DNA of 56,608 nucleotides from Campylobacterales bacterium (GTDB taxonomy: Bacteria; Campylobacterota; Campylobacteria; Campylobacterales; Sulfurimonadaceae). The first letter of the stretch is position 1. Every line of letters begins with the position of its first letter. The DNA lies in the NCBI GenBank assembly GCA_024280035.1, contig JAJRQV010000083.1, forward strand, positions 1 through 56,608, in the 5' to 3' direction. Shown here one piece after another: positions 49,914-55,255 of the stretch. Below the pieces are notes generated by a model. The model saw only the letters and a program-made list of their open reading frames with translations. It made no database searches and was not told where the DNA came from. The translations under genes were made by a program, and so were the position numbers.

Positions 49914-51902
49914 ATGGATATAACAATGAACTACATAAAGAATTTTTTCCTGTTACTCTTGCTTCCTCTTCTTGTTTTTGCTGAAAATATAGAAGATCCT
50001 TATAAAGATATTTATTATGAACAACTAGACAATGGACTAAAGGTCTATCTTCTTTCAGACACTCAGGCAGAAACTACGAGAATTATAATTGATGTTCAAG
50101 TGGGAGATGATGTTGAAACAACTGAAAATATTGGTCTTTCACATCTCGTAGAACATCTTGTTTTTCGAGATCAAAGAGTTCCTTATAAAGATTATTTGGA
50201 TTATATGAAAGAAGAAGGGGCTACGGAAGTTAACGCCTATACTCATAGATATACGACTGAGTACTTTGCCACTATCGGTAGTGAAAAGTCTTATTGGTTA
50301 GTAAAAACTTTTTTCCAGATGATTTTTGATAAAAAGATAAATAAAGAAGATTTAGATGTTGAAAAGAAAGCTTTGCAGACGGAGATAGGTGAGCTGCAAT
50401 GGTACTCAAAAACTTCATATTATATAGCCTCTTTTTTTAAGTTAGTTGGAGAGAGTTTTCCAAAACGTCAAGAAGATATATATGAAAATGATTTTGGACT
50501 TGAAAAACCAAAAGAGCTACCCGAAAAATACTTTTCAAGGCGTAATAATAAGTTGTTTAGTTTAGATGATATGCTTAAACATTATTCTGATTATTATTAT
50601 CCAGCAAATATGACGATGAAGGTCACTGGAAATTTTAATCTTGAAAAGATGATTAAATTAATTCACAATAAATATGGCTCTGTAACAAGAACAGGAGATA
50701 AAAAATCTAAAGAACCTGTTTATAATGCTTCTCTTAGTGGTAAGGCTTTTGAAAGAGAACATACGGGTAAATTAAATAAAAGTCAGGCTTATCTTGGAAC
50801 AAAATATATTCTTGATGATTATAAAAAATATTTAATACTAACAAGTTATTCTGATAACTTAGCCCAAAGAATGCAACAACTTTTAAGGAATGAATTAGGC
50901 AAAACTTATAGTGTAAGCAGTATGGATTATACTGCAAGAGATGCTGGAGTTGCAGGTGTCTCATTTGGCTCACTGCATGATAGTTTTCATACCAATATCA
51001 AAGATGTTAATAATCAAATTCAAACAGATACCAAGGCAATGAAGCGAGAAGATATAATAAACGCTTTAGAAGCAGCTTCTTTGTATTATAGTAACGTTGA
51101 ACATGACAGTACGAGTTTGTTAGATTTAATTGAAACCCAAGAATATTTACATAAATATCATAATGTTTTTGATAAAACACCTTATGAAGTTTTTCAGTCG
51201 ATTAATGTTTCTGATTTCCAAAATGAAATTACTAAGGCATTTGTAGATGAAAACAGATACTCATATATCTCTAATGACTATTATCTATTTCCTTACGATA
51301 TCTCTTTACTCTCACTGTTTTTAATTGTAGTAATGATTTATGCATATATTAGAATAACACAGCTCTATTTAAAGAAAAAAGGGCTTTTTTATCAACCGAG
51401 AGAAGTACTGTTTACAAGACGAATAACAAATCGTTTTTTCTCTTTTTTAAATTTTGTATTGTTGATTTTTATAACAGTATGGTTTAGTGAATGGTCTGAA
51501 GCTCTTGTTTCAATGGTGTTGTTTGGTAATACCTATTCATTGGATACTTTAAATTCAGTAGCCTATTACATCTATTTTATTTTAGGTTTTGTTTGGTTTA
51601 TGTTTCTTTTGATAGTACTTAGTTTAACACTTTTTAGACATTTCTTTGTTCGTCTTGATGTGACAAAAGATAGATTGAACTTTATAGGTAGAGCCTTATT
51701 AATAATCAATAAAAGTGAAATTAAAGAGATTAAAAAAGTCAATTGGTCTATTGATAAATTTTTAAAAATTTTTGGGTTTAGTTTTCTCTTTTATAAACCT
51801 TTAGTGATGTTAACCTTAGAAGATGGACGAACAATTTATGTAAGAACTAAAAATGCAGATGAGTTAGAAGAAGATTTAAATGACTGGAAAGATAAGGAGT
51901 AA
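49914..51902 (+). CDS. M16 zinc peptidase fused to a C-terminal membrane domain
   Basis: A 662-aa protein (658 from the second ATG). Signal peptide at about 6-24. M16 catalytic domain: inverted zinc motif HLVEH (77-81) and the third ligand Glu near 157 (LQTEIGE). A second M16 half-domain follows to ~430. Then come about four membrane helices (SLLSLFLIVVMIYAYI, FLNFVLLIFITVWF, YYIYFILGFVWFMFLLIV) and a small C-terminal domain resembling a bacterial PH fold (VTKDRLNFIGRALLI, then LTLEDGRTIYVRTKNADEL). The fusion of an insulinase-type peptidase to membrane and PH-like parts is unusual. Confidence 0.85.
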   Translation: MDITMNYIKNFFLLLLLPLLVFAENIEDPYKDIYYEQLDNGLKVYLLSDTQAETTRIIIDVQVGDDVETTENIGLSHLVEHLVFRDQRVPYKDYLDYMKEEGATEVNAYTHRYTTEYFATIGSEKSYWLVKTFFQMIFDKKINKEDLDVEKKALQTEIGELQWYSKTSYYIASFFKLVGESFPKRQEDIYENDFGLEKPKELPEKYFSRRNNKLFSLDDMLKHYSDYYYPANMTMKVTGNFNLEKMIKLIHNKYGSVTRTGDKKSKEPVYNASLSGKAFEREHTGKLNKSQAYLGTKYILDDYKKYLILTSYSDNLAQRMQQLLRNELGKTYSVSSMDYTARDAGVAGVSFGSLHDSFHTNIKDVNNQIQTDTKAMKREDIINALEAASLYYSNVEHDSTSLLDLIETQEYLHKYHNVFDKTPYEVFQSINVSDFQNEITKAFVDENRYSYISNDYYLFPYDISLLSLFLIVVMIYAYIRITQLYLKKKGLFYQPREVLFTRRITNRFFSFLNFVLLIFITVWFSEWSEALVSMVLFGNTYSLDTLNSVAYYIYFILGFVWFMFLLIVLSLTLFRHFFVRLDVTKDRLNFIGRALLIINKSEIKEIKKVNWSIDKFLKIFGFSFLFYKPLVMLTLEDGRTIYVRTKNADELEEDLNDWKDKE

Positions 51903-52663: not shown

Positions 52664-53350
52664 TTAGTTTTCTTGAGTTTTTATTTCATCTTTAATCCCT
52701 TGAAAAAAGAGTTTATGTGTGTAGCGTGAGAAGAGATACTCTTTTGCATTAAACAAGGTTTCAAACATAATCTTCCATAAGGTTGTTTGATTGTCTTCAT
52801 TTCTAATATCGCAAAACTTATCTTTAACCTGATACTCGATTGAGGCAAGCTCTCGTGCATGATGGACATAAGCCTTTAGAAGCTCATAATCTAAATCCAC
52901 CTCTTTAAAATCCTCAACTAAGCGAATAATAGCAGCTTCTTTGTCTGTAAAATCATCAGGACTAAGAGGCATTAAAATACCATCATCTAAAAGTGTATCT
53001 AGGAGTTTGGTATCAACATCATAAAATGCTATAAACTCTTTTTTACTAAAGTGCTGAGCATTAAGAGGTATATTGCTGAGCGTGTGCATAAGTGGAGCTA
53101 ACCTAGCGGCTGAACTGGAGAGGCTTTCATCTCTGTTTTCAAGTGCAACTCTTATCTGCTCATTACTACTGCCTAACTCGTTTTTCATATATTTAATGTA
53201 CTCAATGCGTTCAGCATGCTCATTATTGTAACGATGAACATTAGACTTTAGTTTTTTAGCCTCAGGTAAAAGACCTTCTCTAATGTAGTATAAAATAGTT
53301 GATTTAGGTGTACCTGTTTTGGCGACAAGTTCAGATATTTTATACTCCAT
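52664..53350 (-). CDS. MerR family transcriptional regulator
   Basis: A 228-aa protein with an N-terminal MerR winged helix: YKISELVAKTGTPKSTILYYIREGLLP, then HRYNNEHAERIEYIKYMKNEL. The C-terminal ~150 residues are helical with no Cys cluster typical of metal sensors, so the inducer is unknown. It is divergent from the AhpD-like gene, and a perfect palindrome lies in the shared 108-bp promoter region, so it probably controls that gene. Confidence 0.9.
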   Translation of the reverse strand: MEYKISELVAKTGTPKSTILYYIREGLLPEAKKLKSNVHRYNNEHAERIEYIKYMKNELGSSNEQIRVALENRDESLSSSAARLAPLMHTLSNIPLNAQHFSKKEFIAFYDVDTKLLDTLLDDGILMPLSPDDFTDKEAAIIRLVEDFKEVDLDYELLKAYVHHARELASIEYQVKDKFCDIRNEDNQTTLWKIMFETLFNAKEYLFSRYTHKLFFQGIKDEIKTQEN

Positions 53351-53399: not shown

Positions 53400-53426
53400 A
53401 AAACGTTAACCTTAACTTAACGTTTT
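53400..53426. promoter_or_regulatory. Operator-like palindrome in the merR/ahpD-like promoter region
   Basis: Perfect 10-bp arms AAAACGTTAA / TTAACGTTTT separated by 7 bp, between the divergent MerR and AhpD-like genes. A plus-strand TATAAT lies just left of it at 53392-53397. This is the size and symmetry of a MerR-type operator; binding by the adjacent regulator is inference. Confidence 0.65.
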
Positions 53427-53458: not shown

Positions 53459-53989
53459 ATGGCACATATTGATTTACCAGAATTTAAGCAGATGAGCCCT
53501 GCAATTCAAGATAAGGCAAGACCTATCTTAGAAAAGACAGGAAAACTAGGAGAAATTTTTAAACTTTTAGCGATAGATGAAAAGGTTTATTTTGCAACTG
53601 ATGTAATGATTCAAAAATACCTTTTAGATGAGACAACACTCTCTTATGATATTAAAGAGTCTATTGCACTTTTGATTTCTGTAGAAAATGGCTGTAAAAT
53701 GTGTGTGGATGTACACAAAAGTATTGCAAAAATGCTTGGGCTTTCACAAGAACGTATTGAGCAGGTACTTCAAGGGGTTGACTCTATTGATACTTCTGAT
53801 GAAGAAAAAGCACTACTGAATTTTTGTATTAAAGCCTCAGGAAAAGATAATTATAAAATCTTAAAAGAAGAAATTGATGCCTTGAAAGAGATGGGTTACT
53901 CGGATGTTCAAGTGATTGAAGCCGTTGCCATTACAGGCTATTTTAATTATATCAACACCCTTTCAAATGTTTTTGCCTTAGGTGAATAA
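53459..53989 (+). CDS. AhpD-like carboxymuconolactone decarboxylase family protein
   Basis: A 176-aa all-helical protein. The AhpD redox motif ExxCxxCxxxH is intact (E76, C79, C82, H86 in VENGCKMCVDVHKS), so a thiol-based peroxide or disulfide reductase role is more likely than decarboxylation. GAGG precedes the ATG. It is divergent from the MerR regulator and followed within 1 nt by the DsrE-like gene. Confidence 0.88.
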   Translation: MAHIDLPEFKQMSPAIQDKARPILEKTGKLGEIFKLLAIDEKVYFATDVMIQKYLLDETTLSYDIKESIALLISVENGCKMCVDVHKSIAKMLGLSQERIEQVLQGVDSIDTSDEEKALLNFCIKASGKDNYKILKEEIDALKEMGYSDVQVIEAVAITGYFNYINTLSNVFALGE

Positions 53990-53990
53990 G

Positions 53991-54440
53991 ATGTTTATAA
54001 AACTTATGCTCTTTTTATTTATGTTGAGCAGTTTAGTTCATGCTAATGAGTATAAGGTGGTGTTTGACTGCAGTGCAAAAGATGCTCGTTTTGTAATGGG
54101 ACGTATGATATTAATAGAAAGAACCATTAAGATGATAAAAGAGCAGGGCAATACGGCACTTGTTGCTTTAACGCTTCATGGGGGTTGTGTTGCTATGGTT
54201 TCTAAAAATTATGATGAGATTGTTGCAGACGAGGATATGGACTATATTCAAAAAGCACAAGAGAGTATTACTCGATTAAAAAAAGAGAAAAATGTTGAGG
54301 TTGTAGTCTGTGCCATGTCATTAAATGCAAATACAATTGATGAAGATGATGTACTGCCTTTTATAAAAATAACACCCAACAGTTTTATAGATACGATTGG
54401 GTATCAAAATGATGGATATGCTCTAATGAGCTTTAAATAG
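53991..54440 (+). CDS. Periplasmic DsrE/F-like protein
   Basis: A 149-aa protein read from ATG 53991 (AGGTGA upstream); a GTG three codons earlier overlaps the previous stop. Signal peptide at about 1-18 (KLMLFLFMLSSLVHA). The rest is a DsrE-type alpha/beta fold (YKVVFDCSAKDARFVMGRM, then VALTLHGGCVAMVSKNYDEI, then VEVVVCAMSLNAN). The Cys in FDCSAKDA, GGCVAM and VVCAM may handle sulfur. Linked to the AhpD-like gene, suggesting a small redox/sulfur unit. Confidence 0.78.
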   Translation: MFIKLMLFLFMLSSLVHANEYKVVFDCSAKDARFVMGRMILIERTIKMIKEQGNTALVALTLHGGCVAMVSKNYDEIVADEDMDYIQKAQESITRLKKEKNVEVVVCAMSLNANTIDEDDVLPFIKITPNSFIDTIGYQNDGYALMSFK

Positions 54441-54448
54441 GAAAAATT

Positions 54449-55255
54449 ATGGTTCAAGATATAATTGTTTATCCCCAAACACCCAGTTTGGGATATAACG
54501 TAGATATTAGGGTTTTTGATAAAGAGGTACTTGAATTAATTCAAGACCTAAAAGATACAATAGAAGCGAATAACTTAAAAGCTTTAGCTGCTTTTCAAAT
54601 TGGCTCCTCTAAGTCAGTGATTGTTGTGAAAAAAGAGGATGGAGAATTCTTAGAACTTATTAATATTCGAATGTTTAAAAGAGAAGGTACGGTAATAACA
54701 AGGGAGAGTACAGCGTATTTTCCTGGTCTTAGTGCAGAAGTTAAAAGATATAAAAAAATAACAATAAGTTATCAAGATATTGCAGGAACACAGCAGTATT
54801 TAGAGGCTGATGGCGAGTTGGCTATTACGCTTCAAAGAAAATATGATTATATCTTTGGTGGGAACTTTAGACTTAGATTAGATGAAGATGAAAAAAAACT
54901 TTTTGATGCAAAACTGGAGTTTGGAACAGATGTAATTGATAAAAATGATTGTCCAACAACCTTTAAACGTGATGTTCTTCTAAAAGGGTTTAATTATCTA
55001 CTAATTGCTAGTGTAATTGGTGTTTTAATAAGTTTCTTTTTAGGCGATGAAAGTTTAAAGGTTTTAGTTCAGATAGAAAATTATACCATGTTTGTGATGT
55101 TGGGCACACTTCTTGTTTACTTCTTTTATGCGCAGTATGAGGGTAAACAGTATAAGCACTGTACCTCGTGTCAAATAGGAAATATTATAGGCACATGTAT
55201 TATTTCATTGGCTAAATTATTGGGCGTATTTATTTTTTATTACTTTTTAGTTTAA
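54449..55255 (+). CDS. Degenerate peptide deformylase homologue with C-terminal membrane helices
   Basis: A 268-aa protein. Residues 1-150 follow the peptide deformylase layout but the catalytic motifs are lost: GxGxAAxQ reads LKALAAFQ (43-50), EGCLS reads ESTAY (Cys replaced near 88), and HExDH reads RKYDY (130-134), so both His ligands and the catalytic Glu are missing. After it come three membrane helices (about 182-198, 212-228 and 244-266) with a short loop containing HCTSC. It cannot deformylate by the known mechanism. A ligand-binding or sensor role is inferred. It follows the DsrE-like gene by 8 nt. Confidence 0.75.
   Translation: MVQDIIVYPQTPSLGYNVDIRVFDKEVLELIQDLKDTIEANNLKALAAFQIGSSKSVIVVKKEDGEFLELINIRMFKREGTVITRESTAYFPGLSAEVKRYKKITISYQDIAGTQQYLEADGELAITLQRKYDYIFGGNFRLRLDEDEKKLFDAKLEFGTDVIDKNDCPTTFKRDVLLKGFNYLLIASVIGVLISFFLGDESLKVLVQIENYTMFVMLGTLLVYFFYAQYEGKQYKHCTSCQIGNIIGTCIISLAKLLGVFIFYYFLV

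Follow-up and report, generated by a model that had tools for sequence, protein, structure and literature searches.

A membrane-anchored peptide deformylase homologue with a replaced active site, a candidate accessory protein of sulfide:quinone reductase in Campylobacterota

The window locus

The window analyzed in this study is a stretch of 56,608 nucleotides from a Campylobacterales bacterium of the Sulfurimonadaceae (assembly GCA_024280035.1, contig JAJRQV010000083.1). It contains an open reading frame on the forward strand (positions 54449–55255) that a preliminary description, made from the letters of the DNA, had read as a membrane-bound relative of peptide deformylase (PDF); the frame was confirmed, with an ATG start and a product of 268 amino acids. 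We use PDFL as the name for the family of PDF-like proteins with a membrane domain and PDFL2 for the window copy. The same strand carries, ahead of PDFL2, genes for an AhpD/carboxymuconolactone decarboxylase-like protein (53459–53989; PF02627, 1.3e-9; TIGR00778, 1.6e-12) and for a DsrE-like protein with an N-terminal stretch that looks like a signal by eye (53982–54440; Pfam PF02635, 2.1e-11), and a MerR-family regulator is encoded divergently on the reverse strand (52664–53350; Pfam PF13411, 6.2e-15). This order of MerR, AhpD-like and DsrE-like genes, here supported by Pfam, is the one proposed earlier. Elsewhere in the window (49914–51902), a frame reads by eye as an M16-type zinc peptidase, with HLVEH and hydrophobic segments toward its C-terminal end.

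A palindrome, AACGTTAACCTTAACTTAACGTT, lies between the MerR and AhpD genes (53402–53424) and is probably the operator of this MerR, as all 14 distinct MerR-linked loci have the same dyad between the divergent genes, with 0–3 mismatches to AACGTWAAGTNNNACTTAACGTT. The window site is the only exact copy of the pattern in its own genome, where two places with two mismatches compare with two for the control. With at most one mismatch, the pattern was found in seven of 20 selected genomes (control 0). Its 11 sites comprise seven beside this MerR (one of which contains an N), two before sulfur-transport genes and two elsewhere; the sulfur-transport sites lie directly upstream of PF04143 gene pairs in G020 and G368 (L177 and L184, near position 1501), and the two remaining sites have no PF04143 neighbour. 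The presence of the palindrome before both the MerR operon and the PF04143 pairs suggests a small sulfur regulon. Together with the DsrE-like gene of the window operon, these sites recall DsrE and YeeE/YedE-type sulfur trafficking, but no sequence relation between these systems and PDFL was found, and the link is purely genomic.

The MerR/AhpD/DsrE setting is loose and AhpD dispensable in it: in one locus the AhpD gene is cut to a 22-codon remnant that joins its start and end, with PDFL kept behind it (L034, 5930–5998; also in L092), and in another it is absent, so that MerR faces PDFL directly (L150). A congener of the window organism (G001, L176) has kept MerR, AhpD and DsrE and has no PDFL; a 91-residue membrane-like frame stands in its place.

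Retained fold, replaced active site and membrane cysteines

Residues 4–148 of the window protein match Pfam PF01327 (Pep_deformylase) with an E-value of 5.9e-27 and 94.6 bits against a cut-off of 22.8, and PDFs are also its best sequence matches in the PDB (3.6e-13). The AlphaFold (AF2) model, for which 76 sequences were aligned (mean pLDDT 88.8, pTM 0.60), retrieved the PDF of Helicobacter pylori, 2ew5, from the PDB with Foldseek (E = 1.2e-13), and VIA-align superposed residues 1–159 on that structure with Z 23.1 and rmsd 2.0 over 159 residues. The PDF-like domain covers amino acids 1–160 (54449–54928), and the claim that the deformylase fold is retained stands: the predicted structure is that of a PDF and not of an unrelated fold. 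The NCBIfam PDF models also match, all below their own cut-offs (best equivalog score 61.9 bits against 190; TIGR00079, 57.7 against 103.95).

PDFL resembles peptide deformylase (Def, PF01327; the H. pylori structure 2ew5 and those of Escherichia coli) in fold and in the order of its motifs, but differs from it in the residues of the active site. In E. coli PDF numbering, Cys90 is replaced by Thr88 in the window protein, His132 by Arg130, Glu133 by Lys131 and His136 by Tyr134. When 102 distinct PDFLs, each 240 residues or longer, were aligned with six normal PDFs of their group, the catalytic Cys, Glu and second His were seen in none of the 102 and the first His in four; the earlier statement that the Cys, the Glu and both His are lost consequently holds for the window protein but, as regards the first His, not for every relative. 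None of these PDFLs has the full set of metal ligands, and the substitute set Thr-Arg-Lys-Tyr is itself conserved in 89 of 102.

The former EGCLS motif (EGCxS, with the Cys metal ligand) now reads ESTAY in the window protein (E86-S-T88-A-Y90; 54704–54718), with Glu86 in 102/102 PDFLs, Thr88 in 91, Cys at this position in none and Tyr90 in 100. The former QHExDH motif, which holds the two His ligands and the catalytic Glu, reads QRKYDY (Q129-R-K-Y-D-Y134; 54833–54850), in which Gln129 and Asp133 are invariant (102/102 each) and Arg130, Lys131 and Tyr134 are present in 93, 92 and 97 of 102, respectively. From the first motif, GxGLAAxQ, the LAAFQ portion is kept in the window protein without the glycines, and its Gln (Gln50) occurs in 98/102. 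Arg100 is likewise found in 102/102; in E. coli numbering, the PDF residues that PDFL retains are Gln50, Glu88, Arg97, Gln131 and Asp135. The consistent replacement by Thr-Arg-Lys-Tyr, together with these retained residues, indicates that the fold has been kept and the known chemistry is gone.

The gene is not decaying. Across 21 close PDFL pairs, some of which have dS near or above 1, dN/dS is 0.05–0.20 for the whole gene (0.04–0.16 in the PDF half and 0.05–0.25 in the membrane half), and these low values in both halves point to maintenance by purifying selection and rule out a decaying pseudogene. Nor is PDFL a spare copy of the household enzyme, since the window genome encodes two PDFLs and one normal PDF (L063, with EGCLS and QHEIDH) and PDFLs branch apart from the six PDFs with an SH-aLRT of 100. 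A plasmid gene was also considered and set aside, as a search of 72,556 plasmid records with the PDFL membrane domain matched just one, from Sulfurovum. The survey of relatives covered the best 80 of 166, which leaves room for PDFL outside Campylobacterota.

Behind the PDF-like domain lies a C-terminal membrane domain (amino acids 165–268; 54941–55252), in which the model places helices at 173–197, 200–234 and 243–267. Hydropathy averaged over the family has two clear peaks and a weaker middle one, consistent with three appended membrane helices and with the earlier picture of a dead enzyme fused to a membrane part. The membrane domain of the window copy falls below the cut-offs of all Pfam and NCBIfam families, and a PDB profile search gave two matches at E 0.73 and 0.75. 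Foldseek of this domain alone against the PDB returned nothing at E ≤ 0.001, which does not in itself show a new fold. Pfam scans of 22 members of the domain gave weak and scattered matches, of which the most recurrent, FeoB_associated (three of 22, best 1e-4), was not adopted.

Three cysteines mark this domain. Cys168 (54950–54952) belongs to a CPTxFxRD motif just ahead of helix 1 and is present in 96 of 102 PDFLs; the six without it (L050, L051, L052, L054, L055 and L058) do not adjoin a gene for sulfide:quinone reductase (SQR). The other two lie between helices 2 and 3, in the loop motif C238-T-S-C241-Q242 (55160–55174). Cys238, Cys241 and Gln242 occur in 102/102 PDFLs, a figure that is partly circular because part of the loci were found by the CxxCQ pattern, so that the fair figure is the 31/31 in the set found by whole-protein similarity and unselected for the motif; Glu231 is present in 101/102. 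The helix 2–3 loop is basic across the family (basic/acidic averages 1.87/1.08), the helix 1–2 loop is the reverse (0.63/1.61), and PDFL has no signal peptide by eye, which together suggest an N-in topology with the cysteine loop in the cytosol. A standalone 98-residue three-helix protein with CTGC and no PDF domain is encoded behind SQR and a small gene in G254 (L151, 4551–4847), on a contig that ends soon after.

Association with sulfide:quinone reductase

Homologues with the same fusion, 102 of them distinct, are most commonly located in an SQR operon. The prevailing order among 112 loci is pepN, SQR, a protein of approximately 55 residues, PDFL, a hybrid histidine kinase and a response regulator, where the kinase and the response regulator were named by Pfam and pepN by NCBIfam, with three neighbour frames left out of the family scans. 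Among 104 distinct PDFLs, 58 have SQR at most two genes upstream, 49 have the kinase at most two genes downstream, 13 have a divergent MerR no more than four genes upstream, and 27 have none of these neighbours. The SQR neighbour matches solved SQRs, with three cysteines that align with those of the Aquifex aeolicus enzyme, and the kinase has a predicted PAS-HisKA-HATPase-RR-Hpt architecture (Pfam).

Across 397 Campylobacterota genomes of at least 90% completeness, the PDFL membrane domain was identified in 81 and SQR (E ≤ 1e-100) in 111. Both are present in 80 genomes, SQR without PDFL in 31 and neither in 285; the sole genome with PDFL only (G204) has a marginal match (E = 3e-4). At the genus level, 21 of 22 genera with PDFL have SQR, as against 34 of all 69, and in genus g2 both occur in 27 genomes, neither in four and just one of them in none. 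Of the congeners of the window genome, five were searched, and none encodes either gene; two of these five are 89% complete. Fisher's test for the co-occurrence gives p = 1e-56, which we give no weight because it ignores the kinship of the genomes and the joint loss of adjacent genes in one event; as adjacent genes can go in a single deletion, the shared absence of PDFL and SQR is likewise no independent proof. The coupling is one-sided: PDFL comes with SQR, and SQR, which occurs without PDFL in the 31 genomes, does not need it.

PDFL itself is no SQR, but it stands directly downstream of SQR and the small gene, on the same strand, in 72 of the 81 PDFL genomes (counted on the stronger SQR matches, down to G021); the window copy is not so placed. 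Type IV SQR is described as conserved in all sequenced Sulfurimonas (PMC4584964).

The frame between SQR and PDFL is unannotated, encodes approximately 55–60 residues and ends in ...RTCxIWQFIRFxxINIKM...KSH; examples are L031 6978–7151 (reverse strand), L162 4586–4768, L168 3874–4062 (reverse strand) and L171 7230–7391. Distinct SQR genes followed by 350 bases or more of sequence number 77, and a profile HMM seeded with four of these loci detected the frame behind all 77, also where PDFL is absent; in 59 of them the PDFL membrane domain lies within 1.8 kb. Two members of this small protein scanned against Pfam and NCBIfam matched no family there. The annotation of Sulfurovum mangrovi (NZ_CP087125) lists at this place, in the same order, an FAD-dependent oxidoreductase, a hypothetical protein and two peptide deformylase fragments. 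The PDFL of this strain (L171, 7497–8312, NZ_CP087125.1) is split into two frames, both annotated as peptide deformylase.

The window copy itself belongs to a different branch. We placed the 102 PDFLs and six PDFs in a quick-search tree, the deep order of which is unsure because of five long end branches. PDFL2 falls in a clade of 29 rows with no member seen beside SQR, for at least three of which (L088, L089 and L091) the upstream DNA is cut off by the contig. In the sister clade of 45 rows, 43 have SQR upstream, and two are cut by the contig start and have the kinase downstream; L045, L107 and L115 were included in the SQR group of the tree on the downstream kinase alone. Deeper branches are mixed, with some linked to SQR and others not (L050–L055, L058 and L143–L146). 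From these placements, the window copy is most simply regarded as a duplicate in a derived-looking MerR-AhpD-DsrE setting.

Three genomes bear on the relation between this duplicate and the copy in the SQR operon (PDFL1). The SQR operons of G020, G033 and G342 have the small gene and no PDFL1; in G020 and G033 the SQR cluster also contains a MerR-AhpD-PDFL2 block, at a distance of approximately 7 kb from SQR, and in G342 PDFL2 is located elsewhere. These arrangements suggest that PDFL2 may stand in for PDFL1.

Possible roles of PDFL

The reading we favour, to which we would give an even chance, is that PDFL is a catalytically dead, membrane-anchored PDF homologue that serves as an accessory protein of Campylobacterota SQR; the constant membrane cysteines, the conserved dead pocket and the presence of SQR speak for it. 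According to this reading, a PDF homologue that lost its metal site and gained a membrane domain would have been recruited to serve SQR. In the N-in orientation, the PDF-like domain, Cys168 and the Cys238/Cys241 loop would all be cytosolic and close together at the membrane. With its Thr, Arg, Lys and Tyr around the retained Gln50, Glu86 and Arg100, the dead site may be a pocket of positive charge for an anion or the end of a peptide, and would no longer hydrolyse formyl-Met. The three cysteines could accept or sense sulfane sulfur from SQR, in a direction of flow that we infer, or hold a redox-dependent state, and PDFL might thereby help SQR to release its product, to hand it over or to tolerate it, or might assist the assembly of SQR at the membrane. 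PDFL2, which shares its place behind MerR with the AhpD- and DsrE-like genes, would act in the same way once that regulator is switched on. Against a role with SQR stand the 31 genomes with SQR and no PDFL, the deeper branches that are not SQR-linked, the six of 102 PDFLs without Cys168 and the window clade, never seen beside SQR.

The preliminary description had proposed a sensor or binding protein. A membrane PDFL that detects sulfide, polysulfide or redox state by its cysteines or dead pocket, and signals to the adjacent soluble hybrid kinase or acts with MerR, is possible but in our view unlikely. Regulators are frequent neighbours, as the counts for the kinase (49 of 104 distinct PDFLs) and for the divergent MerR (13 of 104) indicate, and the kinase has no membrane segment by eye, which makes an outside membrane partner plausible. 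If PDFL were its sensor, the kinase might be expected only where PDFL is, but it adjoins SQR in three genomes without PDFL (L153, L161 and L163, by BLAST to the kinase cluster) and is part of three SQR operons in genomes that encode PDFL at another place (L186–L188). That SQR keeps the kinase as a neighbour even without PDFL weakens a signalling role toward it. Moreover, the 14 PDFLs of the window clade that are linked to MerR/AhpD/DsrE were seen without a neighbouring kinase, and MerR proteins usually sense by themselves. A sensor is thus less favoured than an accessory protein of SQR.

It also seems rather improbable that PDFL is a biogenesis factor, in which the dead PDF domain would bind the start of a nascent chain or the exit of the ribosome, and SQR, or the small protein that accompanies it, would be brought to the membrane by the membrane domain. 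The intact fold and the near-invariant Gln50, Glu86, Arg100, Gln129 and Asp133 would suit such a factor, as would its neighbours: SQR, a small protein with an amphipathic-looking conserved end (by eye) and, often, aminopeptidase N. However, SQR occurs without PDFL in 31 genomes, and none of the features examined is specific to ribosome binding. A non-classical deformylase or other hydrolase with a new active site, to which the conservation of Thr-Arg-Lys-Tyr might point, is very improbable given the absence of a complete ligand set from all 102 PDFLs and the normal PDF in the window genome.

The suggestion that such a protein had not been described agrees with the open-access literature searched. 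Among the matches listed there, no deformylase homologue is tied to SQR in these bacteria, PDF pseudoenzymes are not treated, and 'peptide deformylase' and Sulfurimonas are not found together. A review on Fe-S clusters contains both 'peptide deformylase' and 'sulfide quinone' but not Sulfurimonas (PMC8614886); two papers cover SQR types in Sulfurimonas, and the main text of neither contains the word deformylase (PMC4584964; PMC7490688). The label 'peptide deformylase' on the one annotated relative seen points to a mislabelling, which would mislead gene counts and target studies.

Two questions about SQR are, to our knowledge, open, namely how its products exit and how the enzyme gets to the correct side of the membrane when no signal peptide is obvious. 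PDFL and the protein of approximately 55 residues are two concrete candidates for them. At its boldest, and with low confidence on our part, PDFL may be a previously unrecognised subunit of the sulfide-oxidising machinery, in which the PDF fold, once that of a metallohydrolase, has become a module for binding anions or persulfides. Together with the membrane cysteines and the small partner, this module would take the sulfane sulfur of SQR through or along the membrane into the sulfur relay of the cell, with PDFL2 as the MerR-inducible version of PDFL. The family as a whole suggests that a translation enzyme has been recruited into respiration.
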